From assembly GCA_000310025.1 (NCBI GenBank), contig FN649741.1, positions 3,584,729-3,648,728 on the forward strand: a stretch of 64,000 nucleotides of DNA. The letters are read 5' to 3'. This stretch comes from Ectocarpus siliculosus. Lineage: Eukaryota; Sar; Phaeophyceae; Ectocarpales; Ectocarpaceae. The notes under the pieces were generated by a model. The model was not told where the DNA came from. It did no database searches and saw nothing but the letters and a program-made list of their open reading frames with translations. Both the position numbers and the translations under genes were made by a program. The first letter of the stretch is position 1, and every line of letters starts with the position of its first letter. Below, one piece after another: positions 1 through 63,012 of this stretch.

Positions 1-553
1 GGGGGGGGGGGGGGGGGGGGGTGTACTCATAGTCGTGCATGCCGTAGTCGTTTGACCATTGACCTCGCATCCCTACAAAGCCGGGACGGAGCACGCCGGG
101 TTCTCACCGGACCAGGCTCTCACATCACCAAGCGCGAAGCGCCGTGACGTATTTGGCGAGTCGCATGAAGGGTGAGCTGCATCCTGCTAAGGGTGTTCGG
201 CATCTTGTGCTTACTTCCTTGCGTACGGATGACAGCTACGTATGACTTAATTTATTTTCTGGTGCTTTCACTTCCAGAGACAGTTGTAAGCACTGTGTAA
301 CTGCCTTGAGGAAGCTTGACCATTTTAACACAACGTGGTGCGATCATCCCCCGTTGCGCGGAGTGAGGTTTCTCGACCCCGCACAACATGATCTACTCGA
401 CCACCATTATGGTTACCGCCAAAAAAAAAAACCGAGGTAAAAAAAAAAAACGGTAACCTGGTTGCCGAGTTCACGAAGTGAATTGGCTTGTTTTACAACG
501 TCGTTACCAAGCGACGAAAACCCAATCCCGATGGCAAACACCGAGTGGGGGGA
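1..553 (-). repeat. Poly-C-tailed retroposon, copy a (window edge)
   Basis: Read on the minus strand, this copy ends in a motif containing GGCATGCACGACTATGAGTA followed by a C run; on the plus strand the window opens with 21 G. The same sequence recurs inverted at 12190-12732 with only scattered differences, and its last 115 bp recur at 893-1015. It contains a hairpin near 410-460: GGTTACCG and CGGTAACC flank two A runs. No coding capacity is visible, so it looks like a SINE-like or 5'-truncated non-autonomous retroposon. The left boundary lies outside the window; the 553 boundary is where similarity to the 12 kb copy fades into G-rich sequence. Confidence 0.7.
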
Positions 554-892
554 GCGGTGGGGTGGGTGGGGGAAAGGAGGGATGCATCTCCAAGCATCGT
601 TGAAGAAAGAGGGCTAGGTCAATCAAAGTTCCTGTACTTTGCGGCCTCTTTATATTCCGGACTTTGTCACGCAATAGAACGCTCGGTGGGACGGTTTCGA
701 GAAATCTGACGCGGATATCTCCGCATCGGGAACTCGGAACGGCCCGTGTCATTTGCTTTAGGACGGAATTGCAACGGACGTTCACGGACGTGCTTGAAAC
801 GAGGGCTGCGTGTTGTTAACGGTCCAGTCGTACGCCGGGCCCTCCGCACCTCCCATTCACCCGTGTTACCCAAAACTCACCACGCGCGAGCC

Positions 893-1015
893 GGGGGGGG
901 GGTGTACTCATAGTCGTGCAAGAAGGTGTCGTCTGACCATTGACCTCGCATCCCTACAAAGCCGGGAGTGAGCACGCCGGGTTCTCACCGGACCAGGCTC
1001 TCACATCACCAAGCG
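893..1015 (-). repeat. 5'-truncated copy of the poly-C-tailed retroposon
   Basis: A run of ten G is followed by GTGTACTCATAGTCGTGCA and then about 100 bp nearly identical to positions 20-133 of the window. Similarity stops abruptly after AAGCG at about 1015. Retention of only the 3' end is the usual outcome of incomplete target-primed reverse transcription. Confidence 0.7.
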
Positions 1016-1647
1016 GTGTTTCTCGCTTCGACTTCCTCATTTTCTCTCCGAAATTAGTCAAAAACAATATGATCGAGTCTGCCGACGAGGCTGCTTGTCG
1101 AGCAGCTTTGATGTTAAAGCACTTCGCTGTACTACTTCCTTCAGGGATGTCGTTGTTGGATACTTAAGACACTTCGATCGTTGAATCACTTCAAGAATAC
1201 TGGCCCTACAAGTACGTATTTTTTTCTACTTCTAACAAAGGCGGAATCAGGGAACCATGCCCTTTAAAATAGCCTTTCAACCGTTCGATGCCAGAGGTTC
1301 ATCTTTCGCACCCAGAACATGTTGAGAAAACAGGAATTGACCCAACAACCGGAGCCGGATACCCGACGAGCTCGAGGTCTACTGCTGCGCACGCGAATGA
1401 GTGTACTGTATTGAACGCCTAGACGTATCTCGGCCCTTCATCGACCCACCTGTTGCTCTTAAGCAGCTGGCAGCAACGAGCACGAGTTTCCGCCAACATC
1501 GTCCAGCGCACCATCTACCGGCCGCATGACTTGGAACAGTGTTTCCTCTAGACTTGGTTAGTTTACCTAGTTTTTACCCATCCCTTATGACTCCCCCCAC
1601 CCAACCCGTTTCTTCCATCTTGGTCTCTGAGCCACTCTCTCACTCAC
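1016..1647. other. No gene recognised; probable intron of AMT1
   Basis: This stretch follows the splice donor of AMT1 exon 5 on the minus strand. I searched it for the next ammonium-transporter exon (the equivalent of AMT2 exon 6, with a Trp-Gly-Trp segment and a Leu-Leu-Phe-Gly segment) and did not find it on either strand. No other coding signal is evident. Confidence 0.4.
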
Positions 1648-4119: not shown

Positions 4120-4439
4120 AGCTGCGCGTGCGCAAGGCCTTTAACGAAGAAACGCGTCGCCGCAGGACCATGCACGAGCGTCAATGAAAGCGAAACATGT
4201 TGGTCAGAAACACCAGCACCACGCGGTGTAAACTCTGCAGCATCGGGATGAACGGCACCCTACCCAAATCGCGGGGAATGGTTCGAAAAACCAACCTGAT
4301 GACTGCTCTCACCGAAACGGTGTTTATGTACTCATCACATTCAATGGAATCAATTGAGTTGTTCTTTGTCAGAGAAACGTGCCCGATAATCGGTGGTATG
4401 CTGTGCAGCGTGTATACTGATTACATTGTATCTGCCATT
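4120..4439. promoter_or_regulatory. Upstream region of AMT1
   Basis: This lies immediately 5' of the AMT1 start codon (minus strand) and should hold its leader and promoter. An open frame crosses it on the plus strand from 4197, but its first 80 codons resemble nothing I know. I see no clear TATA or initiator element, so the assignment rests on position only. Confidence 0.25.
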
Positions 4440-5485: not shown

Positions 5486-5962
5486 ATTTGATCGAGGGCC
5501 AGGAATCTGCCATGTATCTCGTTGTCATACGTATTGCTAATCCTCTTCTTTCAATCGCACCCTATCTTATGCGGCGTAATGATCGATGATGTTTTGCCTT
5601 TTTTGTGGCCTACAGTTAAAGCGCTCACACTTAAGAATTGGCAGCTACGAATTCCATGCTCTCAACATGATTATATCGAAACATGAGAACTTGAGCTCCA
5701 GTTGTGAGCTCGGTCAATAACCTCTTTAAAATTAAACCCGATTATCGGACATTCGTAGCCTAACCCTGGGAACTTAGTCTAGAACCCCAGCCTCGGCCAA
5801 TCCTAGAGCGCTAACTGTAGTGTATTGCCTTTTCATTTGTTTTCAAGTGTCGGCGTGCAGCGGGGGCGAGAGTATGACCTGCGAAACTCCCCTGTAGGGA
5901 TGCGGGAATGATAACTAAAAGGAACATAGAGGTATCATGGTATCACCCGTGTGTGTCGTTTT
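5486..5962. other. No feature recognised
   Basis: AT-richer non-coding sequence downstream of the LINE remnant, possibly its 3' untranslated part. Stops are frequent in all frames. Confidence 0.4.
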
Positions 5963-6160
5963 TATTAGCATCGACCGCGCTAACCGACTGATCAATGAAA
6001 ATACCTCAGTCTCAGTGCGGTGGAAAACACAAAATACTTCTAAGGCCACGATCTGGAAACCTGTGACCGAGCGTCATGGGGGAGTCTACGCTATACATAC
6101 ATTCCGATACCGTAGCAATAACAGAAGAAAAATGCACGGGTCTGCCAGGTTGTTGTTGTT
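5963..6160 (+). repeat. Dispersed ~0.2 kb repeat, copy 1
   Basis: Begins ATTAGCATCGACCGCGCTAA and continues through GTGACCGAGCGTCATGGGG to a GTAGCAATAACAGAAGAAA segment. Copies at 6973-7172 and 23059-23222, plus a shorter one at 23245-23330, share the same order of blocks at roughly 75-85% identity by eye. There is no coding capacity and no terminal inverted repeat that I can see. It could be a SINE, but I could not identify a convincing RNA polymerase III A/B box pair. Confidence 0.65.
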
Positions 6161-6943: not shown

Positions 6944-6972
6944 TTGTTGTACCACGCCCCTGGCTGTTGTTA

Positions 6973-7172
6973 TTATTAGCATCGACCGCGCTAACCGGCT
7001 GGCCAATGAAAATACGTTAGTTGCAGCGCGGTTGAAAACACGAAAAACTTCTAAACGCGATTAACTGGGACCCCGTGAGGGGGCGGCATGGGGAAGGGCC
7101 AAGCTATATTCTCCGGATGAAAGACAGAAACGGTAGCAACAGAAGAAAACTGCACGTGTCTACCAATGCTGC
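6973..7172 (+). repeat. Dispersed ~0.2 kb repeat, copy 2
   Basis: Starts with the same ATTAGCATCGACCGCGCTAA block as copy 1 at 5963, about 1 kb away in the same orientation, then diverges moderately (GGGACCCCGTGAGGGGGCGG replaces the copy 1 middle block) and realigns at GGTAGCAACAGAAGAAAA. Confidence 0.65.
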
Positions 7173-7730: not shown

Positions 7731-7767
<37 letters not shown>

Positions 7768-11900: not shown

Positions 11901-14900
11901 GCCGGCGCCTGCAAGGGTTCCTCTTGCTCAAACTTCCTGTTTTCAAGCCGTCAGACGTATGTTCTCAAGAAGGCAAATCGAAACATAACTCAGAATGGGC
12001 CCATCTTAATTGTAACATGAGCACCGTAAGTCTAGTGGTCACCGTGCTTATTAACAAAAGTTAATGCCCGTGTCCGGTCTGGCTTTGCAGCCACGAACAC
12101 GTCCCCCCCATGCAGCGCTGTGTTGCCCGGAAAATTGCATCGGTACTCCCTCCCGCGAATACTCCAATAATTGTAGTTTCCCGCATGCCCCCCCCCCCCC
12201 TCGGTGTTTGCCATCGGGATTGGGTTTTCGTCGCTTGGCAACGACGTTGTAAAACAAGCCAATTCACTTCGTGAACTCGACAACCAGGTTACCGTTCTTT
12301 TTTTACCTCGTTTTTTTTTTTGGCGGTAACCATAATGGTGGTCGAGTACATCATGTTGTGCGGGGTGGAGAACCCTCACTCCGCGCAAGGGGGATGATCG
12401 CACCACGTTGTGTTAAAATGGTCAAGCATCCTCGAGGCAGTTACACAGTGCTTACAACTGTCTCTGGAAGTGAAAGCACCAGAAAGTAAATTAAGTCATA
12501 CGCAGCTGTCATCCGTACGCAAGGAAGTAAGCACAAGATGCCGAACACCCTTAGCAGGATGCAGCTCACCCTTCATGCGACTCGCCGAATACGTCACGGC
12601 GCTTCGCGCTTGGTGATGTGAGAGCCTGGTCCGGTGAGAACCCGGCGTGCTCCGTCCCGGCTTTGTAGGGATGCGGGGTCAATGGTCAAACGACTACGGC
12701 ATGCACGACTATGAGTACACCCCCCACCCCCCGGAAGCACATGTTCATATATCCCTCGCCCCCCCCGCTTGCCCTCATTCCTACCTCATCCGTGTCCAAC
12801 CATGCCCCGACCTCCCCGGAATACTCCAGGAGCACAACAGCATTTTCAGTAAGACCGTCGAGTGCGACCAGGACTGCCCCGGATGTGAGTGTTCCACGAA
12901 ACGAAACTCCCGAAAAGACCGCGAATCACACAATGTTCATGAAGACTACGTAAAATTTTCGGTAGATTAATATATTTGTTTTGTAGCATGCATGTCTAGA
13001 ATCGGCGCGTGTTGCTGGCGGCCTCTGGCGTCGGTGTCTGTTGAGTACCCGGTTACTGCTGTACAGCAGTAGCCTACCCGCGTATGTAAACGAGTTGAGG
13101 TCCATCCCAGCAGCAACCACAAGATCGTATCCCCCGAGAGGGTGCGAGTGTGCGGCCCGGGCGTTGCTGCGATCACTCGGCCGCGTGCAGCTTGGCACCG
13201 GCGCGCGTGTGTAGCGTGCGGGTTCGGAGAATTTGTCGCAGCGATTCCGCCAGTCAGTCACGCTCGCATTATGAATTCTTGGTATCTTGTGCACTCACTC
13301 ATCCTCTAATGTGTAAATCTCTGTTGTTGTCTACTGACCCCCCCCCCCCCCCCCCCCCCTCCGCTTTGGGGCCCCTTAACCAACAAACCCATGGAAGGAA
13401 ACACCCCTCTCTTCTCCCCCAAAAAAAATGATCCAATGCAACATGTTTCGGATTTTCGAACCCTGCCCCCGGGGCTTCCAAAACTGCCAAGGGGCCAAGC
13501 CGTGAATATGAATACCCGGCGTACCCCCCTGCCCGGGGTGGGGAACCCCAAAAGAACTTCCCCGAACCCCCCCCCCTGCCCCCCCGGCTTTTCCCCCCCA
13601 CCCTATAGAAGAACCCCCCCCNNNNNNNNNNNNNNNNNNNNNNNNNNNNNNNNNNNNNNNNNNNNNNNNNNNNNNNNNNNNNNNNNNNNNNNNNNNNNNN
13701 NNNNNNNNNNNNNNNNNNNNNNNNNNNNNNNNNNNNNNNNNNNNNNNNNNNNNNNNNNNNNNNNNNNNNNNNNNNNNNNNNNNNNNNNNNNNNNNNNNNN
13801 NNNNNNNNNNNNNNNNNNNNNNNNNNNNNNNNNNNNNNNNNNNNNNNNNNNNNNNNNNNNNNNNNNNNNNNNNNNNNNNNNNNNNNNNNNNNNNNNNNNN
13901 NNNNNNNNNNNNNNNNNNNNNNNNNNNNNNNNNNNNNNNNNNNNNNNNNNNNNNNNNNNNNNNNNNNNNNNNNNNNNNNNNNNNNNNNNNNNNNNNNNNN
14001 NNNNNNNNNNNNNNNNNNNNNNNNNNNNNNNNNNNNNNNNNNNNNNNNNNNNNNNNNNNNNNNNNNNNNNNNNNNNNNNNNNNNNNNNNNNNNNNNNNNN
14101 NNNNNNNNNNNNNNNNNNNNNNNNNNNNNNNNNNNNNNNNNNNNNNNNNNNNNNNNNNNNNNNNNNNNNNNNNNNNNNNNNNNNNNNNNNNNNNNNNNNN
14201 NNNNNNNNNNNNNNNNNNNNNNNNNNNNNNNNNNNNNNNNNNNNNNNNNNNNNNNNNNNNNNNNNNNNNNNNNNNNNNNNNNNNNNNNNNNNNNNNNNNN
14301 NNNNNNNNNNNNNNNNNNNNNNNNNNNNNNNNNNNNNNNNNNNNNNNNNNNNNNNNNNNNNNNNNNNNNNNNNNNNNNNNNNNNNNNNNNNNNNNNNNNN
14401 NNNNNNNNNNNNNNNNNNNNNNNNNNNNNNNNNNNNNNNNNNNNNNNNNNNNNNNNNNNNNNNNNNNNNNNNNNNNNNNNNNNNNNNNNNNNNNNNNNNN
14501 NNNNNNNNNNNNNNNNNNNNNNNNNNNNNNNNNNNNNNNNNNNNNNNNNNNNNNNNNNNNNNNNNNNNNNNNNNNNNNNNNNNNNNNNNNNNNNNNNNNN
14601 NNNNNTGAGTCGTACAGGTCAAGGTGTCCGGGAATGAATAAACGCGCGTGTTGTTTCGCGCTATGAACTAACACACACATTAACGACACCTCCCACCACC
14701 ACCACCACCACAAAAAAAAAAACTACTACTGCTGTACTCACAGGTTCATGGAAAAAACCGGCTCGCCAGCGGAGTACATCACGTTCTGTTCCGGCATCGG
14801 CATCGCCGACATGGCCCAGTGCGAGGACGACGTGTACGGCAGCGGGGCCGGGTCCGGGTCCATGTCCAGCGGGGGCTCCGCGTCCGGATCCGGCAGCGGG

Positions 14901-21171: not shown

Positions 21172-24100
21172 ATGCATGCCGCATGCCGTTCTCTCGTTGT
21201 CCGGTTGGCTAAATATTTCTGTCCGAATCGAGTCCTACGAAGGAAGCAAACGCTCCCTCATTTCCGGCCAGCATGCCTTTTACATACATCGACTCCTTTT
21301 CTAAATCCACCGCCTCTTCCTCCGTGTCCAAGACAACTCAACGGAAGAAGAGGGCTATCCGCGGCAGTAGCAGCAAATGCCTCAATTCCCAGCGGTTGTG
21401 GCGGCGCCGCCGGCGCCTCCGCCGCGCTCCAAGGGTTTCCACCCGGCGCTCGGCAAGCCTTGTCGTCGTCCGCAAGGCCCGCCACCAACACTGCGGATGG
21501 TTCCTCGGACCCCTCTCCGTCCGAGTCCGACTGGGATGAAGGCGGCGGCGGCGGCGGCAGGGGGGCAGGGGCAGTTTTTGGAGGAGTAGGTGGGCCGCAG
21601 AGTCTGGAGGCTCGTGAGTGGAACCCATCGGTGCGGAGGAGCGGGGCGTTAGCGATGAAGGTGCGGCTGGCATGTGTTTTTTTTCGCCTCGAATGCAGGC
21701 ACCTTATTGATCGATACTATCTGCTTGGGCGTGAGGAAGGAGTGGATCTCGTCTTATTTTTTTTTCGTCGTATTTTGTTCGTTGTTCGGAAATGTTGTTG
21801 GTTTTTCCTGGTGATTGCAGATGTTGTTTATTGGAGGCGTTTTGTTTGGGTGCGGGAGGAGTTCCGGTGCTTCGGCAATGAAGGCAAAGGATGCTATGAT
21901 ACTTGGCTATGGTACTTGTAGTGTCTTTTTGTACAATTCAGCGGCGCTACTTATAATAGCCTGGTTGTGCTCTTGGTTGCGCGTTTTGCGGGAGAGCGTA
22001 TGTAGTAATTGCATGATGAACGCCGTGAAGCAGCGTGCCAACGTGTCATCTCCGACTCGGCAAGAATGACGCTACGATTTCACAGGTAAGTTGCCTTGTT
22101 TGCATTCAACAGCAGTGCGTAACCACTATCCCTCTTTTGTGTTTTTTGAAGGTTGGTTCGATGGCAATCTTCGATTCTTGGGGGGTGCGCCACCCAGTGA
22201 CCGTCCTGCAGTTGGACGAGTGCGAGGTTGTGCAGGTGAGATACGAATACGTACGTTATATGCACATGTAGTGATCAAGAGGACGAGGGAGAAGGACAAA
22301 GAGGGAGATGGGAAGAATGAGCGACGAAAACGATGAGCAAGAGAGAGCAGACCGTCACACTCGTGGTCAGCAAGAGACAGACAGACAGAAGCGAGAGAGA
22401 CAGAGAGAGAGAGGGATACATATATGTAGAGAGAAATGGAAAGTAGATGGAAAGCAGAGAACATGAGCGACGAGAGCGGAACATATCCAACTGTGCATCG
22501 TTTCCATCCGTCGGTACAGGAGGCGTAGACACCCTTCCGCCGCGTGCTCCTGTGCCCCCCCCCCCCGGTCGCCCGCCCGCCACGTTTCCCGTGATTTTTT
22601 TGTCGTTGACCCGTAAACACCTACAGGGGCTGTAGTGCAAAAATGTGTCGTACCTGTTCAGATGCTTTTATGATTAGCACCAGCTGGCACCACTGGCATA
22701 TTTTTCAGTGTATCGGGTCAAAACAGACTCAAATAGCCCGGTTGCGGCCGGTTGTCTATCTTTCACTGTAATTACTTTAACACCTCCTTCGACTGTGGTC
22801 TTGTCTCGACCGGGTAGCCTTTCTTTCTTTGCATGCATTTGTTTTCCTCTGACTCTCAATCAAAGGTGAAGACCACGGAGACCGACGGTTACACGTCCTT
22901 GCAGCTGGGCGTCGGAGAGCGCAAGACGAAGAACGTGAACAAGCCAGACGCGGAAAGATTCCGCCGGGCTGGGGTCAACCCCAAGCGGAAGGTGGGCAGG
23001 AATATGGGGCGTTTTGGCTCTCCGAGTCTGTGTGTGTGTGTGTGTGTGTGTGTCTTTTCTATTAGCATCGACCGCGCTAACCGGCTGACCAATGAAAATA
23101 CATCAGTCTCAAGTGTGTTGGAAACCACAAAATGCTTGTATTGGCCACGATCTGGGACCCTGTGACCGAACGTCATGGGGCAGTCTACCCTCCTCTCCGG
23201 ATTCAAGGTGGCAATAACAGTGTGTCTATGTGTGCGTGTGTTGTATCGACCGCGCTAACAAGCTGACCACTGAAACGACGTCAGTTTCAGTTAATCCGTC
23301 AGTGTGCAAAAACGCTTCCAAAGCTTTCTCTTTCTCTCTCTGTGTGTGTTTGGTTCTGGACATGCATCGCTTGTTTAGACACAGCAGCAACACCCTGAAC
23401 ACTTTTCAACACCACATCCTCACCTCTCCCCGCGCACCGAGTGTGCCAAAAGCTCCATTTACTCTTCTTGACTAAGCCGTCAAGTACTCGACATCCACCG
23501 CACGCAGCTGATGGAGTTTCGCGTGAGCGCCGAGGCGTTGCTGCCGGTGGGCTTCCAGCTCCGAGCGCAGCACTTCGTGGCGGGGCAGAAGGTGGACGTG
23601 TGCGGCACCTCCAAGGGGAAGGGCTTCCAGGGAGGCATGAAGCGGTGGGGCTTCAAGGGGCAGCGGGCCTCGCACGGTGTGTCGAAGACTCCCAGGTGAG
23701 GGCTGAGCACACGGGGGGGGGGGGGGGGGGGCGTACTATTTTGTTCTGCATACCTTGGCGGTTAGACCATCGACCACACGTCGTCCTCGAGAGGATGAAG
23801 CATTGCTCCCACAGTACCGATCGCCAATAATGTGCAATTGTTCCTTCCTACGTTGCCAAAGGTGGCCCAAAAACGTTTCCCCCGGCCTATCTATCCTATC
23901 GACATCACTCCCCGGCCTTTTTCAGCGGAGCGGGGGGGGGATCCAGAGGACGGCCGGCCAGCGGCTGGCTCGGTGTTGTGTTTTCGGTTATCGAACGGGG
24001 GAAGGGGTGTAATTCTTGGTCTTGTTACAACGACTCTTGCAGTCGGGTGGCCTCTTGCGAGGGGACGTACGTACCGCGCGAGGATGTTCTCTGGTCTTGA

Positions 24101-26961: not shown

Positions 26962-27190
26962 TGAATAGTGCCAACTGCCGGTATAGTGCCGGTAAAATCT
27001 CTCCACACAGAAAGCGCCCTCAATAGTGCCAAACGGCACTATTGAGGGCGGGCCTGGTATAGTGCCGGTTGGGCACCACGTCAGCCCGCAATAGTGCCGG
27101 TTCACACACGCACGCACACACACCACCACACTCCCAAAATACAGACACCGTGCTGCTGCAGTCCAACACAGCTCTACGCAGAGGCGCACC

Positions 27191-30068
27191 ATGCCGTGTG
27201 CGGAAGGTGAACTGTGCCTTCAACAGAACAGAACGCCGAAGGCCCCTCATGGCCACGTCTGCAAGGGAGGATGTGGCGGGCGGCTCCATAGCACTTGCGG
27301 CAGCGTGGAGGGTGACTTCGAAACATCCCGCATCTGCAGTTCTTGCGTCGCTGCTAAGACTGGCAAGCGCAAAGCGACCGCAGCTGGGGTTGATGCTGGG
27401 GCAGGACCATCTAAACGTCCGACAGAGAAAGGGGGGGGGAAGAAGGCTTCTCGCGCGCGGCTGAGCAACGCTGACAAGGTTGAGGTCCTCAAGCTGCTGG
27501 ATGCCAAGATTTCTCATGAGCAGATAGCAGATCGCTTTAAGTGCTCGGAACGGCTGGTCCGCAAGGTGAAAGCTGAACGGAAGGAAGTGGAGGCTAAGGC
27601 AGCTGCAGGCGACGGAAGCCAGAAAACCGCACGCAGAGGAGACTTTCCGGAGGTAGGTAGAGTACACGACATGCCTGGCAATTTCCTCTCGAACGTTGTT
27701 TTTCCCCGCCATTTTTCAAAAATGCCCTCATGTCGCCGATTTCTACTGCTGTACCTTTTTTTTTTTTGCTCTTCCTTGTTTCTTTGCCTTTCCCTTTTCG
27801 TCTTTTCGTATGTATCATATGGTGTTTTTTTTTTTCATGTCACCTCCTTTTTTTCTTTCTCTTTGCCTTTTTTTGTTATGTCTTTGGCCTTTGAGGTCCT
27901 CGATGTCCACACTCATAGACCTTCCGATTATTTGTCCTTGAAATTGAAAGAGCACTGTTGTGTACATATTCGCACCCGCTTTTTTTTCAAAACAAACAAG
28001 CAGATGTAAGCAGATGTAGCCTGTACGAGCGTCTCCTCGCAACTTTCCCTTTCCCCTCCCGCAATTTTTTCTTTCCGGGTGTAGTGGCACTTAAAAAACA
28101 TCAGCTTTGTTTACGGTGTACCGCGGCGTCGTCCCTCGTATCTGCGCCGCGCAGTGTAGATGCTTACGTTTGAAACTAATCGTTGGTCGCTTGAACCTCT
28201 GCATTGTATACTCTTTTTCGCCGGCAGGTGGATGAGATAGTTATTGATCTGCTCGATAAAGCCCGGAAGGCCAAGATGCCCGTCACACGGGACGTACTTC
28301 GAAGCTTCGGCCGTTCCACCGTGGCAACCCTGCTCGCTGAGCCCGCTACTTCTGCAGCAGTGAGGGCGAGGGTCGAGGACTTCAAGGCCGGTGAAAAGTG
28401 GGCCAAGAACTTCGTGAAGCGCAACAAGGTGCTGAGTGCGAGACTTCATGGCGAGGCTGGTAGTGTCGACCCAGCGGCCATCGAGAAGGGCATGGAGGAA
28501 GTCAGGAGCCTTTGCGCGAAGTACCCAGCTAGGTTCATCTTCAACGTGGACGAGACAGGCATCCAGTGGAAGCTTATGCCCAGGCGCACGTATCTTTCCT
28601 CCTCGGAGGACCGCAAGAAGGCGCGGGGCTCCAAGAGCATGTACTTCAAGGATCGGATGTCTGCCATCATGTGCAGCAACGCCGACGGCACTGCAAAGGT
28701 GGACATGGCCATCATCGGGAGGTCGAAGGTGCCTCGCTGCTTCACGGACGCGCCTTCACCTCTGAAGTACTTCTCGCAGGCCAACGCGTGGTCTGACTCC
28801 GCGACGTTCCTCAAGTGGTGGCTTGAAGTCTTCCTCCCGTTCATTCGGCGCTTCACTCACGAAAAGGTGCTGCTCCTGATGGACGGCTGCTCCTCTCACG
28901 GCGATCTCGTTGATGATCGTGGGCAAGTTACCATCAAGTTCTATCCTCCGAACTGCACCAGCCTGCACCAGCCCATGGACATGGGGATCATCGCGAAGAC
29001 GAAGGTCCTCTACAGGAAGGAGCTGCTCGACGTGAAGGCATCCACAATGTTGGTCGCTGAGACCCTTCGCGCCCAGGCCAAAGCCAGTAAGATGAAGGCC
29101 GGGACGATGGGGCTGGCGCAGGGGCACCAACCTCACCTACGGGACGCCGCTGAACTTCTTCAGAAAGCATGGGGCAGCGTCACTCCCCAGGACATCGCCA
29201 GGTCAGGTTTGAACATGTTCTGTTGCTATGTAGATGCTTCAACTCGGGCGGTGGTGCTAGCACAATAGCTTTGGTGGCACGTTTCGTGGCAGAGGTGGTA
29301 CGGATTTTTTTTGAGAAAGTTTCCTGCAGGGGCATCCCTCGTTTGCAATAAAAATTTCCTCTTTTTTTGCATGCGGATGAAGTCAACTTCTGCCGCTGGG
29401 TCCGTCTAATATCTGCGTTGCACTCAAAAACGGATGCGGTTCGTATTCTCGGCAACCCCGCGACCAGGTGCTTTGTCAAAGCCGACACGCTTCCGCAGGA
29501 GATGGCGGCTGAGCTCACCAACCTCCACGGGAAAACCCAGGCCCGCATCCACGAGCCTGCGTTGAGGTCCCTCACGAAGAGTGTCCACTCGTTGAGCACG
29601 AGCGTGCACGACGCGCAGCAGCAGGGGTCTCGCATCGAAGACGAGGACCTGAGTGAAATGTTCGCAGAACTCAACATCTCACCCGGAGAGCCTGCCCCGG
29701 AGGAGGCGGTGGACTTAGTTCAGGCGTGGGCTACCATCGAGGATGACGATGACGTGGTGGAGGCTTTTCGACAGGATGCAGCGGACGAAATGACGGCACA
29801 GCTAGCGGGAACGCGCCTATCTACCTGCCGCGAGGAGGAATCCGAAGATGAGGCGGACAGTGATCATGAGGACACGGGGGGCGGCCGCCGCGCCCCACCG
29901 GCTTACGGTGAACTGTCTTCTCACTTCGGCGTCCTGGAGGTGGCCGCGCGGGAGAGTGGAAACGGGGACGCTGCGTTCCACCTATCGAAAGCGAAGATGG
30001 CGATGATCGCGGCGCATGCCGCTAAGGGCGTGCGCCAGACAGACATGAGAGAGTTTGTTGATGAGTGA
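27191..30068 (+). CDS. pogo/Tigger-type DDE transposase, three exons
   Basis: Cut-and-paste transposase acting on the TIRs of its own element. Exons 27191-27652, 28228-29201 and 29468-30068 join in frame to 678 aa. The N-terminus has a Cys/His cluster (HVCKGGCGGRLHSTCG then ICSSC), possibly a zinc finger. Around residues 95-135, NADKVEVLKLL and HEQIADRFKCSERLVRKVK form a psq-like helix-turn-helix. A CENP-B-like HTH follows (GEKWAKNFVKRNK). The DDE triad is visible: FNVDETG (D262), LLLMDGCSSH (D373) and LHQPMDMG (D405), giving the pogo-like D-D-D arrangement. Exon 3 starts with the family motif IARCFVKA across the splice site. The C-terminal third is acidic and ends in a motif APPAYGELSSHFG, also present in the deleted element at 45 kb. 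No frameshift or nonsense codon was seen. Confidence 0.92.
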
Positions 30069-30604: not shown

Positions 30605-30606
30605 TA

Positions 30607-34100: not shown

Positions 34101-37100
34101 GCAATAGGTGACCCAAGTGCAAGGGACTCCGCGGGTTGAATACCCCCGCTTCCTCCCCCGCGACTTCACGAAAAGGGGAACGGTGACACTTTGCAAGGTG
34201 TAACTATTTTTCTCCTGCCAGCGCGTGAACCCGGCAGATTTTTCGTTTGGCAGTTCTCTCGGCAGCCTTCTCAATGCATTGTTCCTCACTCTTCTGTGAA
34301 AACTGACGGTGAGATGTACTCCGGCCGTTAGACCCTGCCCATGTACACACAATCATGCATTCAAACTCGAGTCGTATTATTCAAGCGTCATCTTAAGCTA
34401 CTTTGAAGGTCACTGAAGACTGAGGCGCCTTTGAGGACAACATATACATACTGTTGAATATTGGATGGGAAGTTTGTTGATAGATCGGTATGAAAGGCAC
34501 CTGCGGTTTGCGCATTGTGTAGCGCTTGTTTTTTTTTGCATCTAGAAGTACATAGGTCTCGGCATAACAGTTTCCTGAAAGAGCTGAAGCCTCGTGCTAC
34601 ACAAATGTTCTGTGTGCTCGTCAATATATTTGGCAGGTGGTGAGATGGGGCTGGAACTCCCATGGATGGGCATCCGCTTGGTCAAGTACCAGGGACGACC
34701 TTCTCTTCGGCTGCGGGGTTATCGACTTTGCGGGCTCGGGGGTGGTAAGTTGGGAAGTATATGTAGGTTTATGATGTTGGCTCTCACGTGCGGAGGGTTG
34801 CTTGTTGTGCGCGCGTGCTCGTCCTAGTCCTAAGGCCCACGAGCTATTCGTTGCGCTATCGATGTCGTTTGGACCAAACCCACACCCACCTCGTCAAACG
34901 CCCATTGTTCCCTATCGACGGTCCCTACGCCACTTGAGAACAATATTCATTCCTCAGGTCGGGTTTGACTTCGTTCTCCACCGTCAAAACCAGCTTCTGG
35001 CACGAGGCCTTTGTTGCCTCGATGGGGATTCACTCGGCGAGTGCCGCCCAGCTTGGTCCAACCCCTTGGCTTGCTGGGACTCCTTCGCAACAGAAATATG
35101 CTATTACTTCTTGTCCTTAACCATCTTTGTCATGTCTGCCTCGTGTCCTGTATCCACACAACACGACAAAGGTCCACACTACCGGAGGAGTGGCCTCCCT
35201 TGTGATGATGATTCTCATAGGGCCGCGCTTGGGCCGTTTCTCTGGTGGCATGTCCATACAAACAACGGAGGAAAGCGTCATCATTCAGGCATGCACGTAG
35301 GCTACTCCCGGTACCCCAAGGATACAGTCCGCAGTACACACCCAAATCTTCGTTGCCTCTACTGGCAGAGGTATCACTGACCGAGTGAAGGGGTGGTTTT
35401 CTGACTGTGTTAGCTTCAAGTTAACTCACAGTACTCTGTTCCGGAGATACTTTTGAAAAGGATGCACCAAAAAAACTGCAGACACATCATTTTACAGCTT
35501 GTGAAATCCTGGCTCTGTTGATGCTCCAGGACGAGATGACTTCTCCAGCCAATCAATCATCGTTCGACATTTGTTTTGGCTTGTTGGTGCATGATGAAGG
35601 AAACAGTGTCTGTGTGCAGAGACAGCCCCGCACGACCGAAGCCATCACGCGCCACAAGCCATCACACGACCGAAGCCATCACGCGCCACAAGCAAGCGAA
35701 GCACAGATTTTGCGTGGAGAGTTGGAAGCGATCTTGAGCTTCACCAGGTTAGGTCTTCGAATGCAGAGGAGTTTGTGACGAAGAAATTCCTCGCGCCGCC
35801 ACTTTGTCTGTTCTCCGTCGTTCTCAAACAAACCGCTGCAACCGACACCAACTGCCGCTGCCGTCATGGCCGTAGACGCTGGGGGCTTTCCTGCTATGGG
35901 TGGGTTGGTACGGGTTCAACGGCTGCAGGTGAGTGGGTGCCGCATCTAGGAGCAACCACCGGATGGCAGTCGGTATCATGACACGGTATAAACACCAGCA
36001 ATATGCTTACCCGTGATCGCCCTTGCCTCACCGCTATTGCCCGGCTTTGGAAATGACGTTCCCGCCGCAGTCCTTTCCCGCCGCCCCTACCGTCCCTGGG
36101 AGAAAACAGAAGAGTATAGACGGAAATGGGGGGTCGAAGAGCTTGCAGTAGTGGATCAGAACACGTATGCCGAACTAGGGATCGCAAGAAACTGCTCGTG
36201 GAATGCCTACATGTCCAAGGTAGCGGAAAAGGGCAAAGCAAGAGCAGGGAAGCTGCACCCTATACTCGCAAACCGGCACCTCGCATCAAATTGACGGTTG
36301 AAGAGAGTAATCGTACCGCCGCTTGTACGCCGGAGAAGTATGGGAAGGAAATAAGAAGGTAGTCAAAGAGCTCGAGGCGGCGCGGATGAAAGCAGCGAAA
36401 ATCGTCCTAGGATGCTCCAAGCGCACAAGTAATGCAGCCTTCAGGGCAAAACTGGGGATCCGATCCCTACGATCGGGAAGAGACGCAAGGAAGCTGACAT
36501 GGCACTATTGCATGTGCGGTATGGGAAATGAGAGGTTACCGAGAATAGCTTGGGAGGCGGAGTGGGCAAACAAGAAGAGGGGTAGACAACCCACGGAGTG
36601 GGTCAAGAAAGTTGTAGGTGACGTATGGAAGGGGTTCGAAATTGACGAAGGCGATACGCTGGATACGGAGCGTCAAAAAGGGTCCAAGGAGANNNNNNNN
36701 NNNNNNNNNNNNNNNNNNNNNNNNNNNNNNNNNNNNNNNNNNNNNNNNNNNNNNNNNNNNNNNNNNNNNNNNNNNNNNNNNNNNNNNNNNNNTACATGGA
36801 CCGATGGATGCAGGGACAAAACTGAAGGTCAAATTCAGGACTGGGGATATTTACCGTCGAGAACGTAGACGAATATTTAGGAAGGTAAACGATGAAGACG
36901 ATAAGTTCAAATGTGAATGCGGTTCCGAGTGCGAAGACCGGGTTCATGTAGTTGTGGAATGTCGGTTGTACAAAAAGGAGAGGGAAGTGCACATGACCGA
37001 GCTGGGAAAAGTAGGAGGAAGATACATGGAGATGTTTGGGGCATGGAATAGCCAGGAGAAGACGGTAGCTGTACTGGGGCATAGGAAGTGGGTTGGAAGG

Positions 37101-40100
37101 CGGGGAGTGATATCGATAGGATAGATAGACTAGGACAGACATTTTCTATCCACCTTCGCCAAAGTCGGAAGAAAGGTTGGCCATCGGTGATCGGTCGTGG
37201 GGGAACAATGATCCGTCCTCTCGAGGACGTGTGGTCAATGGTCTAACCGCTAAGGCATGCAAAACATGAGAGTACGCCCCCCCCCCACCTTCCCTCGACG
37301 GCGACCCCCTCGACCCCGCACCGACGTTTGTTCCTGGTGGCAGCGCGCTGTACATAACTGGCAGCTCGCACGTGGCAGCCAAGGCAATGGTATGTACGAC
37401 CATCTGTGCCACATCGGCCGGTCTGGGCGTCACCTCCGCAAGCTTGGTCTTGTTTCAACACGTGGAACCCCAGGATGTTGTCAACGGCGTGAGTGGGAGT
37501 CACCTAAGAATGCCTTGAGGGTAATCGAGAGTGTTACTGTACCCTGCGTCTTGTGCCTGGCTACCTTTGGTGGCGTTTTTTTGTTGCTTGTGGCGGGTAG
37601 GCCCTCTGCAACAGTCGAAATCGTCGGGAGCGTGAACAACCCCTTTCGCTACGCTAAAACAGTTGCCTTCGTCTTCATTTTCGGTAGATTTGTATTCTGA
37701 GAGACAGACTCTGTTTCTTGTGCTCGTTTTCTCGCTCATGACGGAGGTTTTTTTCTCGAGATTGGCCATTGGCACATTTGGGTTAATCAAATAGACGCGC
37801 TTGTTTAAGTCTGCCCGAAGCAAACTTCTTCTACAGGCTAGACAACAGTTCCCGTAACTCTGCTCCAATTGCAAAGCGAAATATATATGTGGAGCGCTTT
37901 TTTGGGGTCCTGCAAAAGGTCGGCACCATGCGTTACAGTGTCTAACCCTCCGCCACCCCCGCCACGTTGCTTCTTCCTCTATGGGCCCTCCAATGCTTGT
38001 TCACCCCTTTGGCGGAAACTATTGGAATGTACTTGGCGTCGTCCTTCTCAGATACTCTCAGGGCTCGTTGCCATATCAGGTGCGGCAAGTTTCTTTTTTG
38101 TCAGCTTTGAGTCTCAACAAGTCAAACCTTGCTCTACGGTCGGTAACAAGCAATTCAGTGCCCAGAGAAGATCGAGATTCCGTGGGATTCGTTTCCTGGT
38201 AACTCGAAGTATAGACCGTAAAGGTGTTGTTCTTGGGAGGGGCACAAACAACATTCACTCGTAAAGCGGAATGGTAAGGAATAAGTAGACAAGATAGATG
38301 AGACCCTTGAGAACCCGCACCTGGACGCCAGGATCGAACGAACTACACCCCATCGCACCAAAGGTAGAATATGCAGGAGCTGTATGACAAGGAGCACGTA
38401 AGTCTGGGAAATAGCCAGAAACAGTACAAGGTACTGCAGCCGCTCTAGATATGCAGTGAGAACGAGCAGCACGGCGTACCAAATGAAACTCTAATGGGTT
38501 TGAGGAAATTTAAACCGACGATACAATGTAGTCGGTCAAATACACGAAGGACATTTACAGGTCACAGCAATCAGAGAGGTATGCTAACGTACACTGGTAC
38601 CATACAATAATTGAAAAAGAGACGCGGGTACAGCTGGAATGGCATGGTATTACTAGGTTTTGAGAAACCCGAAAGAAAATTGGAGAGGTGTTTGCGGCAA
38701 GAATATTTTGGGGGATACAAAGGAAGACACACAGTGAGGAACACCTGGAGATTAACGGGAAGTTGCAAGCACAAAATATACAAGCGTTTGTCGCTATGGT
38801 CCGATGTACAACATAATAGTCATTTTCGAGTAGGGGACCTCGACTTGGTCGCAGGAGAGGGAGAAATAGTACGAAGGAGGACGAGGTTACGAACACCTGC
38901 CTATCTATGCGGCAAGGCTACAAGAGAGTCGACTTCACACATCATCTTAGCACGTGAACTGTAACAAAAGGGAGGGGAGCCCCTGAAGGAGAGGTACAAA
39001 ACAAAGATGGACGTGACAGGACTGTGAGATTGGAATATATCATTTAGTAAGCGAGAGGACAGCCGCTTTACCGTAAGGCAAGCAGCACGTGAGAAGGATC
39101 CCCCGCACCCTCCACCAGCCGATGCAAGATCGCTGCCCGCCGCGACGACGCCACACACGCGCGAGCGCGCCCTCAGCGACTGCTGTCGACTGAAAAACCG
39201 TGAATCCACCGTAGTATCGCCCTTTAACGTACATACATACGAAAACAGCGAGCTGTGCCGTCGTGGAGGTGGAAGGAGCGTTCTTCATTGGCCTTGTCTC
39301 AGCCGTGATCTACCTTGGGTGCTCTCGATTCATGGACATAGTGCGAATCGACGACATGGTGAGCAGAGTGTGATAACTGGAGGCATGTTTTGGTGGGAAA
39401 GGGATACGCACAGAGTGCTGACTGTGTCCCTGTACTTTTAGTCGATTGGAGAAGCCGTCGGAAGTGCTCCCAAAATCAGGCGGTCACAGCGAACCCAGCT
39501 TTTCCCACGAACAAAATTCTCGTCGTTTTCAAGTCGTTTTGGTTCGGGTACAGGTGAATGTGTCCTTCATTTTCGCGCTCGTTTTTCAATGACTCCTTTA
39601 GGTGGACGCGGCACCAGTGCACCTGGCTAACGGCGTGTGGGGGGTGATCGCCGCTGGCCTTTTCGCGTCACAGGAGGGATACAGCGCGTCCTACTATGCT
39701 GATCGAAGCGAACAGTGAGCATACAGTAGTGGCGCTCTCATTTCTGTTGATCCTAGACACCCACGATCGCCAGACGTCGAAGAGATGACGGTGTGCTGAA
39801 CAGGTTCAAAGCAAAACACAACACCTGCTGGATGTGTGCAACCTGGAGAGGTTTAAAAACGTGTGGTTTTACAAATCATTTGGTGTCTGGTGTTCTGTCG
39901 ATTGCAGATGCTGCGGGTGGCTGTACGGCTGCGGAACGGCCCAGATCCTGGCCAACCTCTCCTTCGTTCTATCCATATTGTGCTGGGTAGGCCTGATGAC
40001 GTTCATGGCTGGGTTTAGTCTGAAATACGTGGGACTGCTGCGTATTAGGTGAGTATCTTCAAACGCAATAGGGCTTACGGGTGTCCCACCAAGTATATGA

Positions 40101-43808: not shown

Positions 43809-43841
<33 letters not shown>

Positions 43842-47700: not shown

Positions 47701-50700
47701 GTGCCCCGCCTTGCCCGCCATGTTGGTGCTCTTATTATCCCAGTTTCGCGTTGAAGCTATATGTAGCTGCTCCGTCGGAGATCATTCGGTGTCGCGTCGC
47801 AAAGTTATCTTCTGCGTGCCCCCGCCCAATCAAGTTTGATATTGTAAGCAGTGACGGGCGTTGTTTGGAGTTGGTTCTTAACTGCCGATTCTTCTCCAGC
47901 GCCCTCTCCCCGCATTCCGAGCACGCGGCTGCGCCGCGTGCTCGCACAATTCGCGGCCGCTAGGCCGTGCGTTGGCCGTGGGTGGGGGTTAGGGTTAGGG
48001 TTAGGGTTGGTTGGGATGAGCAACCTAGCCTTGCTCGCGTGAGGAACCTAGCCTTGCTACGTTCAACGTCGGTTAGACCTAAAGAGTTGCTTTCAAAGTG
48101 TAACCTAACCTCATTTGTAATGGAACTTTTTCCAAGATGGGAATCGGGGGGGACCGACAGATATTATTGTGAAACGTGCGTACTAGATAGCAAGCAGAGC
48201 GCACCGAGGCGCTTCGTCAGTTCGTCCTCGCCTCACGGACCCCTGTTTGTTATCTAGCCGATAGGCTGTACACTCCACTACTGTGAGCTTCTTGGAGCTA
48301 AGTTTGAGCAGCTAAATAGGGTGCAGTGTGCGAAGAGAATGCCTTTGATATGAAAGCAACTTCACGATTCCCTGTTTAGAATTTCAACTAATTCCAACTG
48401 GGAACACATGAGGACTTCCAACTAGGATCGTCCAGCAATTCCGCATTGGATTTCCTATTTTACCAAGCATGATGAACACACACTGCACCCCAGCTCCCCA
48501 AACTTGGCTCGAAGAGGCTCACAGCAATGCACTGCGCGGTCTCGAAGGTTTGAATGCAAACGGGTCTCTGTGAGGCGAGTACTGAGTGCCAAAGAAGGTT
48601 TGTGTGCTTTTCCAACGAAGTACGTAGAACTCGTGCGGCCTCATGTGGGTTTGGATGTAAAAGGCGTAAAATCGGGATTCTAAATCGGAAACAAATCTAT
48701 AACAAGTGGCCTAATAAGGCCGAGTCTTACGTGGTGATTATTTCGGGATTTTTATTCGGGGGGAGGTCCTTTTCTCAGCCCAAATAATTATTGGAGCGTC
48801 TTACGCGGAGGAATTTTGCCAATTCCAAACGCCCAAATTCCAAATCGCCGAACATTTCCTAGGATCCCAGCTGCCTCGTTGGAAAATAGGTCCATTTTCC
48901 AAATTGGATCGGCTGATAATTTCCAGTTTGGAACTGGGGGGGGGTACCCCCTGGTCACACCCCGATCGTGCCAGAACGAGGAACTACACCGTTTGCTGGC
49001 CAGAACAGAGGCCAGTATCATTAGGCCATGCACAAACCCTCTGCAGGTATCAAAAGTTCAGGGCGTTCTGCGTCGTGTTGGCCGCACACGAGCCCCGATA
49101 ACGTCAACCCTGCCACATTGCTCTGCTGACGTTAGAATTCTTGCCTTTGGGCCGAAAATAGCCGTTTTTGTGCCTGCTGCATGTGTGACCAGTCAAAACA
49201 CACGCCAGAGAGAGGCTTTACGCCGTCGACATCCACAAACTGCAGCCAGTGGCGTGTGATCATATGCATACCCTCTGCTCGCGTCCCAGAAACAGATCAG
49301 ATTGTCCAGTTTTGATTGCACACCGCCAACGTGAACCGAAGTGCGTTGAGGTGTTGACTTTTTTTACTTTTTTCTTGTTCCGCCACGTGTTTGCTCCGTG
49401 TGTCACCCGCTACCAGTCCACAACACATGCCAGAGGGAGGCTTTCGGCCGATGACATCCACAAACTACTGCCAGTGGAGTGTGATCATACACAATCGCTC
49501 TGCTCGCGTCCCAGAAGCAGAGCGTATTGTCCAGTTTAGATTGCACACGGCCTGTAAACGTGAACCGAAGTTTGTTGCGATGTTGACTTTTTTGAACGTT
49601 GCCTTTTTTTTTCTGGTTGCTCCGAGCGTGATCAATCCACAACACATGCCCGAGAGAGGCCTTTGGCCGACGACATCCACAAACTGCAGTCACTGGCGTG
49701 CGATTATATACAATGCCCTCTGGAGGCGATCCAAGAACAGGGCACTCGGTGTCTTGTTGGTCGCACACGAGCCAAAACCGTGAACTGAAGCATGTTGTGA
49801 CCAGACTTGAATCGGCCCTTTTTTTCCCTGAGAAGAAAATCTGTCTCGAGGAACCGTAATAAGAAGGACGTTTAGATCCAGATAATTTTTCCCTTGCAGA
49901 CCACCCCCCCCCCACCGAGAGAAAAAAGAATCTCCGAAATAATCACGACGTAAGACTCGGCCTATAAAGACTGAATTTTATACTTCTACAACAGGACCCC
50001 CCTTTCGAGGATGTGGTGACTTGGGTAATGCTGTCGTCACGGTTGGTTGTTTTTCAACTCTCAGTGTCCTGGTTGACTGCTGTTTGCACACAAACTGCAC
50101 ACACATCCCAGTTCTGCAACCCGCTGCTTTTGCTCTCCCTCTACGTCTGTGCTACGTTGCTCGTGGTCCAAGAAGGGTGTGCATGTTGCAGGAGAAAAAA
50201 TGGTGTTCGACGCGCAGTGGAGTCGGCAGATTTACATCAATAAAATAATAGGAAACGCCTGCATGTCTTGGTTTTCCAAGTCTAACTGCGAACTTGCCTC
50301 GCGCCTGGTAGTAGCTAGGATGGAAGCTTGGATACACTACAGATTAGGGGGTCGCGATTTTTCGAAACGATCAGCTTTTTATCGAAGTCAGTGAGCTGCA
50401 AGCAGGATTTTGGAGGCTTATATGTGGTCCAATTTTCGAATACTTCGAGCACCCAGTGCCCGCGAATCAACGCGTACGTGATGGCGTGTGACGACCGGCT
50501 TCAGTATGGCTCTTCCCTCGCACACCCTACTCGTCCGCTTGTTGTCTGGGGTCACACGTATATCCAGGTCTCACCAATAGCAAAAATGTTTGAAGCTTTC
50601 GAATATCGGATCGCGCATCAGCATTCAAGTCCCGCTTGTAGCTCACCGAACTCGACAACAAATGATTGTTTCGACAAAAGCAGACCGCAAATCTGTAGCA

Positions 50701-59500: not shown

Positions 59501-60256
59501 CGTGGCACGCCTGTCCACCCATTTCCCTTTGCATGCGCACTTTCTTCGTCATCGATCGATCTCAGGCCTTGTTCTTCCAAGTCCGCTTGTGCGTGTATGG
59601 AGTCTCGCGAAACCTTATTGAAAGCATCAACAAACTACCGCCGGAATTACCCCAAGGTGCGCAGCACCCGGCTACATACGCTTGCGTTATTTGCTCAAAG
59701 CTTTACGTGGCCGGCGCCTTCCTACAAACGGTGAAAACACACCGTATCATCCAAGGTGTCTTATCATACGCGCTGGGTTGCAGAAAAACTGGGGTTGCCG
59801 CGCATCTCTTCTTCTCTCCATGCCTTGGCTCCTCTCCGAAACGAACGGATGATGTCGCCATACCGCACTGATGGTGCAAGCCAGATGCATCTTGACTCCC
59901 TTAATTTTGATCGAAGACGGCGACGTGGCCTTTCTGTGCATCCCACCGCTGAGCTGTTCCTTCCCTCGACGGCCCTCCTACTAAACACTGCCGCGATGGC
60001 TAAAAATCCAACACGGCTGCGCTTCAGTATCGTCCTTCCCAAACAGGGTATCGCCCTCTCTCACACAATCAAGGCCGTCCGCTGGCGTTCGCCGTCGCGT
60101 CTGGCGCTTCTCCAAGCCCGCCACCGGCCACCATCGCTCTTATCCATCCGTTCAACGAAAAAACACCACACAACAACTGGACCAAGACCTGCCCATCCCA
60201 CAGCAGCGCGCCCATCTAACCAAACAGAAGGGGGGGGAAATCTACTTCCTTAAGCG
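56511..60256. other. 3.7 kb without a supported gene
   Basis: Two plus-strand segments look more protein-like than average: 56959-57213 (GLKFLGLGIKVIGTSVAELP) and 59561-59871 (LFFQVRLCVYGVSRNLIESI, then HPATYACVICSKLYVAG). Neither shows a known motif or a consistent splice chain. The GTGCGATA cluster at 58126-58465 lies between them. Confidence 0.3.
58126..58465. repeat. Cluster of CGCACGGGG / GTGCGATA motifs
   Basis: ATCGCACGGGGGGTGCGATA at about 58126, CCCCGTGCGATAATCG at about 58369, and ATCGCACGGGGGTGCGATAT at about 58417; the first and last are each followed by CCGGTACGTGCGATA. These are near-palindromic and arranged in both orientations. They may be ends of a small TIR element or a protein-binding array. 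Confidence 0.55.
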
Positions 60257-62308
60257 TTACAAGAACTTGAGGTCCGCAAACTTGCTGAAAATCTCGTCTC
60301 GCTCTTTCTGGAGCTGCGGCAGAGGACGAGTGGGAGCGGGGGAGGGGAGACGAGGGGTAACGTCGAACTGGATAATTTGTTACATTTTCAGCGCCCTTAC
60401 ACGGTTCGCCCACAACACACCCAAAAGTTTTCACAGGCAATCCCCCCGGGGCAGAGAGATAGCTTCGTTTCTCGCCAACGCAATACACGTAGAGGACACA
60501 GGGGGAACCAAACCATCCGGAGTTTTGAGACACGTGTCACGTCACCGGGCCAATCAAAGCTTGAGGCCGGGTGCCGCTTTGCCTGATCATAAAATATCGG
60601 GATACTCTCCGACCGAACACGACAGAAGAGTTGGTTATATCATGTGGATCCGGGCCAAGGTGCGGTGGAAGTATCGCAGCAAAGGTTCCATCGTGTTCGC
60701 CCATCCACCAAACCATTTGGCAAGCTTGATAACGGCGTACGCGACCATATATTAACAATATCAACACAACATTGGCGCCACCAAGAACACGAACACCAAC
60801 CAATACGAACAGTTGTGAAGCCCGAAAAAAACAGAAGGAAGCGCCTGCACGCACCTTCTCCTGAGCCTCCTTGCGAAACCGCCCCCCTGGTCGTGGACGC
60901 TGCTGCTTCGATGCGATCGTGGAGTATCGAGAAGGACGGTTGTAGGCATCTAGGTGAGCATCGCCATGAAACGGTTGTGTACGCCCGGACCCCATTTCCA
61001 CATCACTACCACCCAACCGGCGAGGAGAAGACGAGACAGGCCCGCCTCGCCAAGGACGGCCATCGCCCGCTCTCGCCGCGCCCATTCCTACTGAGCACCG
61101 TGCTGTCCTTGGCAATGTTGCGGGTAGATTGTTCGTGGGTAGGAGCGTGTACGAGTAGCGTGGGAGGCCCTGTTTTAGGATGGGGATGGGCAGGCGGGAG
61201 TTGCACTGGGGGTCAGTCAATAAAGGTACCAAGAAAGGTAGGCATTTTGCGAGGTGTTAACTGATTGTTTTTGAAATCCGACTCAACGGTTTTGAATACC
61301 CACCTCTGGACGCGGCAAGCTGTGAAGGTTCTTACCAGCTACTTCCCGCTTCCATTCGAGAAAACGGAAGTTTTTGGTTCATGATCCTGCGTGCGAATCA
61401 ACCACATTCAATTCCAAAGTACAAGTGCAGGCTCTCAATATTCACCGCATCGGCGTGGTTTCTGCGACGACACACCAGTGCGAGTTCAAAACAGAGTGCG
61501 GTAGACGATCCGTCTCGAACGTCCGATTTGGAAGGGTCACGAAGCTCGACAAGAAAAATGTTTTGATCCAGAACGACAACTCGAGATGGTATTGGCGAAC
61601 AACCAAACCCACTTGAAAATGGAGTATTTCGGGGCGAAATATGATCCTGTTTGACCATATTTGTTGCGTTTAATATCGCTGTAGATGTTTCGAAGGATAC
61701 GCTCGACTCAAAGGAAAAATAAGACAGACAGGTATTTCCTGGGCAGACAAGATGCACCCAACCTGGATCAAGCGCACTCGGAGTCTCTCCCAACGTGTAT
61801 GCGCAAGAGCTTCAACGCTACTTAGCTTCAACGCTACTTAGCTTCAACGCTACAAAAGTGCCGCTATCTTGGCGTGACGCTAGGCGTTGGGTGAGTTGGC
61901 TGAGCCGGAAGTCACCTTATTATTGTAGTTGAGGACAACTCTCGTGCCAGGGGCGGCCGGAACTTCTTGCCCCGCCTTCAGCAGAATCCCACCGACCAAC
62001 ACGACGCGGCAGTTACGCCCGATGTACTTGATGCGGCAGTGCCCTGTTCTCCCGCGACAAACACGCGAAACCAACGCCAAACAACCGGCACAGGCAAGAG
62101 GGAGAAAGCTGAGAGGGAGATAATACCCGTGCTTCGGGCACGTTGTGCGGACAAGACTTCAACAATCTCCTCGGGCGCCATAGAGCAGAAAACGTCTGAC
62201 GGGCGACGCACCTTGTGCGAATCCTTCCTCCCCCTCCGGTACGGTGATCTCCACGTGTCGACGACTGACGTGATGGTCCCTGATGCCTGACTTTTTGCAT
62301 CTCCCCAC
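60257..62308 (-). CDS. FHA-domain protein, 3' exons (partial model)
   Basis: Exons on the minus strand: 62308-62212, 62043-61916, 60902-60855, 60313-60257; all junctions are in phase and end at a TAA. Exon A reads VGRCKKSGIRDHHVSRRHVE, with the Gly-Arg and Ser-Arg-x-His core of FHA phosphothreonine-binding domains. The Gly-Ile-Arg-Asp-x-x-x-Ser-Arg spacing resembles the PNKP/aprataxin type of DNA-repair proteins. Exon B continues HCRIKYIGRNCRVVLVGG and LLKAGQEVPAAPGTRVVL, like the later strands of that fold. The end is a charged helix (RKEAQEK, LQKERDEIFSKFADLKFL). The 5' exons were not found; a LINE end sits just upstream at 62781-63012. DNA-repair function is inference from fold resemblance. 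Another exon may lie between B and the C-terminal helix. Confidence 0.55.
61808..61853. repeat. 16-bp tandem repeat, three units
   Basis: AGCTTCAACGCTACTT occurs three times in tandem, the last slightly truncated, in an intron of the FHA-domain gene. Confidence 0.9.
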
Positions 62309-62780
62309 CTGCGGAGGCAAGTCGATGAAATTAGGACAGCCAGCACACACCCGTTTTCCTCAACTGTTAAATCGCGAGATCATGAGTTTCAGAGAGCACC
62401 GCGTTGTCAGTGGACTGGTGGGGACTTCCTGGTGTACAAACAGGCCGTTGTTGAACACCACCCAGTCTCTTCAACAAGGACCCCATGGGCATGAAACTTG
62501 CGATACATATGGAAGCAGGACCGAGCTACTGGAACATCGACCTACTGCACACAAAGCACATAACAACGGCAGGTTCTTGAAGTCAAGGGCGTGCGTGGCG
62601 AAAAAGCTGCAGTTGAAAACCTCGTGAAGTAGAGCTGTCTTCTCGAGTTGCTTCTTTGAGGGGGAGTCCTGAAAGCTCTGCTGCAATAGCGACTTCTGCG
62701 ACGAATTGCAATCTGTCGATTTGCAAGGAGCGTATTCCCGCCATAGGGTGAGTGTGTGTCTACATCAACAAACGAAGTTG

Positions 62781-63012
62781 GGCGTACTCTTATGTTTTGC
62801 ATGCCGTAGCGGTTAGACCATTGACCACGCGTCCTCGAGAGGACGGAGCATCGTTCCCACAGGACCGATCACCGATGGCCGATCGTTCCTTCATACTTTG
62901 CCAAAGGTGGCTCAAACATGTCTTCCCCTAGTCTATCTATCCTAACGATATCACTTCCCGCCTTTTCAAACCACTTCCTACTCCCCAGTACAGCTACCGT
63001 CTTCTCTATTCC
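62781..63012 (-). mobile_element. LINE 3' end (5'-truncated)
   Basis: The reverse complement begins GGTAGCTGTACTGGGGAGTA and matches the end of the LINE at 37057-37280 at about 85-90% by eye, including GATAGATAGACTAGG and the final GGCATGCAAAACATAAGAGT. Only three C remain of the tail. It lies just upstream of the recognised FHA exons. Confidence 0.85.

Follow-up and report, generated by a model that had tools for sequence, protein, structure and literature searches.

The window analysed here (the whole 64-kb stretch of DNA) appears to be eukaryotic and has a G+C content of approximately 51%, ranging from 0.41 to 0.58 in 2-kb windows, and contains two N gaps, one of 100 N (36693-36792, within the insertion B1) and the other of 984 N. 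An exon of ribosomal protein L3 was recognized (Pfam PF00297, E 2.8e-10), with an apparent splice donor, assigned by eye, at 23697. A Tc5/pogo-like transposase frame is located at 28195-29268 (DDE_1, E 5.9e-29; the HTH_Tnp_Tc5 match is weak and below the cut-off), and upstream of it, at 27095-28009, lies a helix-turn-helix-like frame (HTH_23, below the cut-off). A dispersed repeat of about 98 nt with ATTAGCATCGACCGCGCTAACC is present at 5946-6043, 6957-7054, and 23043-23140, the second and third copies having 84% and 74% identity with the first, and a direct repeat of three diverged copies, spaced by 219-225 nt, occupies positions 49189-49714. Six insertions of the window, occurring in both orientations, terminate with the same tail of approximately 50-60 nt followed by C. 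An earlier note on this DNA had located six such tails, and all of them were found, with the C counts given in Table 1. The insertions belong to two families, A and B.

Table 1. Insertions carrying the common 3' tail, and the flanking repeat of B2 (TSD, target-site duplication)
Feature	Coordinates	Strand	Description
A1	1..552	-	Family A, non-coding; tail 22-82, followed by at least 21 C at 1-21 (lower bound, the window edge cuts the run); 5' end ~546-552
A2	893..1015	-	Family A, 5'-truncated; 113 nt of element plus C10
A3	12188..12732	+	Family A; element ~12201-12719; C13 directly upstream, C6-A-C6 after the tail
B1	36099..37286	+	5'-truncated LINE-like remnant; coding remains 36.1-37.12 kb; tail 37213-37276; C10 from 37277
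B2	62780..63014	-	5'-truncated LINE-like copy, ~230 nt; tail, then 3 C
B3	23713..23940	-	5'-truncated LINE-like copy; element ~23732-23926; tail followed by C19; another run, C9, a few bases upstream of the 5' end
B2 TSD, copy at 3' end	62774..62782		GAAGTTGGG on the forward strand; contains all three C of the 'tail'
B2 TSD, copy at 5' end	63015..63023		Second copy of the 9-mer

Family A is a non-coding element of approximately 520-540 bp, the longest stop-to-stop frames being 78 codons in A3 and 64 codons in A1. Over 541 columns these two copies have 96.7% identity. Upstream, the similarity ends at a common point, which defines a shared 5' end; beyond it the two flanks are unlike by eye, apart from their C-richness. 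A2, which is 5'-truncated, is 93% identical to A1 over 123 nt. As a short non-coding element with an apparently LINE-derived 3' tail, family A resembles SINEs. A SINE head, i.e., one related to tRNA, 5S, or 7SL RNA and containing pol III boxes, was not found in family A, where a strongly diverged head could escape detection. Rfam gave no family at the gathering score in the whole window; at relaxed E two matches appeared in A3 (E 0.49 and 3.5), none of them tRNA, 5S, or 7SL, and no tRNA was found by ARAGORN. The best matches in A3 to the A box, B box, and 5S C box were equalled by 294, 261, and 35 of 300 shuffles, respectively. Family A also contains an inverted repeat, GGTTACCG...CGGTAACC, which flanks two T runs (12287-12331 in A3; 411-458 in A1, where they are A runs on the forward strand) and is a possible hairpin.

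Judged from its sequence, family B looks like a 5'-truncated LINE. Over the shared parts, B2 is 86% and B3 76% identical to B1. The 5' ends differ in the three copies, and repeats flank all of them (exactly matching in B2, imperfectly in the other two), in line with the 5' truncation and variable-length TSDs expected for LINE insertions. B1 is the only copy keeping substantial coding remains, which are frameshifted. By eye, we take these remains to be the region that follows the RT core, with a Cys/His motif; LINE proteins usually have such a motif at their C-terminus. B2 contains a 17-residue match to the C-terminus of the B1 coding region (E 0.006), and in B3 no coding match was seen. All B copies lack their 5' part, and a Pfam scan of three coding pieces of B1 returned no RT match. 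The earlier note had described three copies of a LINE with RT remains; such remains would apply to at most one copy, at 36.1-37.12 kb, and RT was not recognized in the pieces of it that were scanned.

The two families are joined by their 3' ends. The strict motif GGCATGC..GAGTACRC is present in four of the six tails, compared with a mean of 0.00 in 100 shuffles, and diverged versions are found in the copies at 893 (A2) and 23713 (B3). A direct blastn comparison of A1 with B2 gave 82% identity over 55 nt (E 9e-9). A joint profile of all six tails, built from the same copies that it then detects, matches the window six times at E 5e-23 to 4e-18, the next match having E 0.27. Profiles made from one family and searched against the other are a fairer test. 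The profile of the three B tails detects A1 (E 6e-7) and A3 (E 9e-7) and, weakly, A2 (E 0.13), while that of the three A tails detects B2 (E 6e-7) and B1 (E 1.5e-4) and, weakly, B3 (E 0.22), which it ranks below one unrelated place (E 0.066); thus, two of three tails are clear each way. Of the 85 columns of the tail alignment 35 are invariant, and 28 of these fall in the final 50 positions of A1. Apart from the tail, blastn found no match between the bodies of the two families at E up to 1. Among the tail-profile matches in the window there is no tail-only copy, and all six tails are continuous with an A or a B body. Two bodies with a common tail, 5' truncation in each family, and the lack of a solo tail among these matches support a LINE/SINE-type partnership, as proposed in the earlier note, and the best reading of these data is a partnership of a LINE with a non-autonomous, SINE-like element through a common 3' tail. 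Separately, a conserved stem-loop in the tail was considered and is not convincing. Folding of single tails compared with shuffles gave z from -1.5 to +0.7 for the six tails, with no clear margin. RNAalifold proposed 18 pairs, five with double changes, in an alignment whose six rows are in effect two lineages. A nine-pair subset is 92.6% paired, better than slid controls, but is matched by 251 of 500 column shuffles.

The nature of the C run was addressed by comparing the 3' flank, taken from just after GAGTACR, with the sequence that leads up to the 5' boundary, with a tolerance of 6 nt and with approximately 2940 random 5' flanks as controls for each copy. Every 3' flank begins with C, and a repeat beginning with C is therefore partly built into this test; for A3 it began one base later than for the other copies. 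Five copies are covered, the 3' flank of A1 lying beyond the window. The clearest case is B2, in which a 9-nt repeat (CCCAACTTC in element orientation, GAAGTTGGG on the forward strand) occurs at 62774 and 63015 and is absent from the rest of the window on both strands; 3 of 2937 random flanks score as high. Since this 9-mer is found solely at the two ends of B2, all three C of the B2 'tail' are target sequence. For B1, 5 of 2936 random flanks score as high with a 5' boundary that was first picked after the flanks were viewed, and the test was therefore repeated with the boundary free over 61 nt, whereupon 9 of 787 did so; the repeat letters, matched by eye while the script gave the scores, are CCCCTACCGTCCCT / CCCCACCTTCCCT. 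The corresponding counts were 9 of 2944 for A3 and 13 of 2944 for B3, whose repeat is imperfect. A2 lacks a recognizable target-site repeat, as high a score being reached by 1726 of 2941 random flanks. Flank repeats that include the C run thus resemble TSDs in four of the five testable insertions, one exactly and three imperfectly, which places the C run at least partly within the target site. The earlier note regarded the poly-C as the elements' own tail, produced by a special priming or slippage mechanism, and named C runs belonging to the pre-insertion site as the finding that would refute it. Such an origin is clear for B2 and probable for A3, B3, and B1, but not seen for A2, and the idea of an own poly-C tail is weakened accordingly. 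The C run looks mostly like the landing site rather than a part of the element.

The base content at the junctions was considered against the background of the whole window, in which C/G runs of at least 8 are common: 19 were counted, against 1.7 expected under a first-order dinucleotide model (maximum of 6 in 100 simulations), i.e., they are about 11 times commoner. A lone C run is therefore weak evidence of a tail. Four of the 19 runs directly follow a tail (at 1, 893, 23713, and 37277) and two lie on the 5' side of an element (12188 at A3 and 23932 at B3). The probability of a run of at least eight C within 20 nt upstream of a random position is 0.0021, and such a run is seen at both A3 and B3. 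On the 5' side of A1, C6 and then A precede the shared start, while in A3 the C13 adjoins it directly. When the 20 nt before the 5' ends of the six copies are pooled, they contain 68 C, a count reached by none of 3277 random sextets (maximum 54). Taken singly, the 5' flanks of A2 (4 C in 20 nt, P 0.77) and B2 (8 C, P 0.15) are not enriched. At 22 nt, the run at 13338-13359 is the window's longest run of C; it has no adjoining element tail and lies about 260 nt before the 984-N gap.

LINEs move by target-primed reverse transcription of their RNA; many recognize their own 3' end, and SINEs carry that end (PMC3747384, PMC13295347). It is proposed, with a probability of roughly 0.65, that family B is a LINE, that family A is copied in trans by means of the last ~50-60 nt of B, and that the poly-C is largely the start of the TSD. 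The RT of family B would recognize the shared tail and copy, beside its own RNA, the non-autonomous family A. Its endonuclease would nick the target at the 3' end of a G run, which is the 5' side of the C run in element orientation, and the resulting GGG-3' end might then serve as primer on the tail, with cDNA synthesis starting at the tail's end (...GAGTACR). If the second strand were cut further along, the duplicated stretch would start with the C run, so that the apparent poly-C tail would be for the most part the first portion of the TSD, perhaps extended afterwards or at priming. A TSD beginning with a C run accounts both for the variation from 3 to more than 20 C and for the C runs on both sides of A3 and B3. 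However, A2 fits this model poorly, having C10 after the tail and neither a C run nor a repeat on its 5' side, and the 5' flank of B2 alone is not C-rich. The 3' run of A3 is interrupted by one A, the C counts at the two sides of B3 are unequal (19 on the 3' side and 9 on the 5' side), which leaves room for growth of the run by slippage, and the whole scheme rests on six copies. A stronger version, which we put forward tentatively and hold to be somewhat less probable than its opposite, is that the LINE and its partner truly prefer C/G homopolymers as targets and that the run is duplicated, and perhaps lengthened, at each insertion; the pair would then both seek and breed poly-C.

The alternative that survives best is a true poly-C tail of variable length, formed if C already terminates the element RNA or if the RT slips on GGG/CCC, with the C-rich 5' flanks resulting from annealing to C/G-rich targets. 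In its favour are A2, the unequal runs of B3, and the at least 21 C of A1, and a reference cited in PMC3747384 has slippage retrotransposition of a SINE tail in its title. We nevertheless regard it as unlikely, given that B2 has 3 C only, all inside its TSD, and that C runs are also carried by the 5' flanks of A3 and B3. In a second possibility, family A starts with intrinsic C, acquired, e.g., by template jumping from a C-run tail to the next copy, and the sequences before A1 and A3 are not target. In both family A copies with a complete 5' end, C does adjoin the shared start or stand very close to it; yet B3, a truncated copy of the other family, likewise has C9 near its 5' junction, and the C-rich stretch differs between A1 and A3; we regard this explanation as quite improbable. 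A last idea, that the tail is a small element in its own right which entered the two bodies in separate events, is disfavoured to the point of being barely credible, as no supporting point was found, the tail is always 3'-terminal and right at the flank, and no solo tail occurs in the window.

Insertion with a C run at the start of the TSD, as preferred here, can be compared with known systems. In Ectocarpus, the non-autonomous family RTEX-N1_Ec32 (~600 bp, more than 6000 copies) has its 3' end in common with the RTE-X LINEs RTEX-1_Ec32 and RTEX-2_Ec32, and the origin of its 5' region could not be determined in that study (PMC12477816, 2025). Ectocarpus LINEs are often 5'-truncated and are among the shorter families that dominate introns (PMC12477816). 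A short element with the 3' end of a LINE is also the anatomy of families A and B, which therefore resemble RTEX-N1_Ec32 and RTEX-1/-2_Ec32, a likeness of description and not of compared sequence; unlike the case presented here, neither a C run nor a C-rich target is mentioned in the available part of that text (PMC12477816). Going by this anatomy and a seemingly similar base composition, and not by a match of sequence, the window is quite possibly of brown-algal origin. In RTE-clade LINE/SINE pairs of many species the first TSD nucleotide agrees with the nucleotides of the 3' repeat (PMC13295347). Bov-B LINE/Sauria SINE and the plant RTE pairs share a 3' end and show this agreement, as A and B do, but their tails are short microsatellites instead of C, and beside Bov-B members the target is rarely tail-like, whereas the flanks of A and B do resemble the tail (PMC13295347). 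LINEs targeting microsatellites, such as Togen with (TG)n and some HERO families (PMC4640811), are similar to A and B in inserting at a simple repeat; here, in contrast, the repeat is a C homopolymer and the preference looks loose, from 3 to more than 20 C. For LINE/SINE tails, there is no general consensus on the sharing of sequence between the LINE 3' end and the target (PMC13295347). In the available part of PMC9942856, the term 'poly-C' occurs solely in connection with a DNA transposon family, for its terminal repeat, and among the literature matches listed no title or abstract opening called a LINE/SINE pair poly-C-tailed or C-run-targeting. The exact tail pattern gave no match in viral or in prokaryote contigs, an exact head pattern none in viral contigs, and a second, body pattern none in prokaryote contigs, where eukaryote repeats are not expected; three pattern matches of the LINE peptide in viral contigs included no relative.

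The shared-tail partnership is of an ordinary kind and perhaps already outlined in the literature; what is new and testable is the loose preference for C/G runs. If it is true, then a LINE and its short partner land by a simple, measurable rule, immediately 5' of C runs. Such a rule would help to explain the poly-C tracts of this genome and would provide a clear case of a LINE 3' end sharing sequence with its target. If family A is RTEX-N1_Ec32, then thousands of copies are at hand for testing this rule. It is also worth noting that B3 sits 16 nt past the apparent 5' splice site of the L3 exon (23697-23731), and the insertion has thus left a G19 run near the splice donor.
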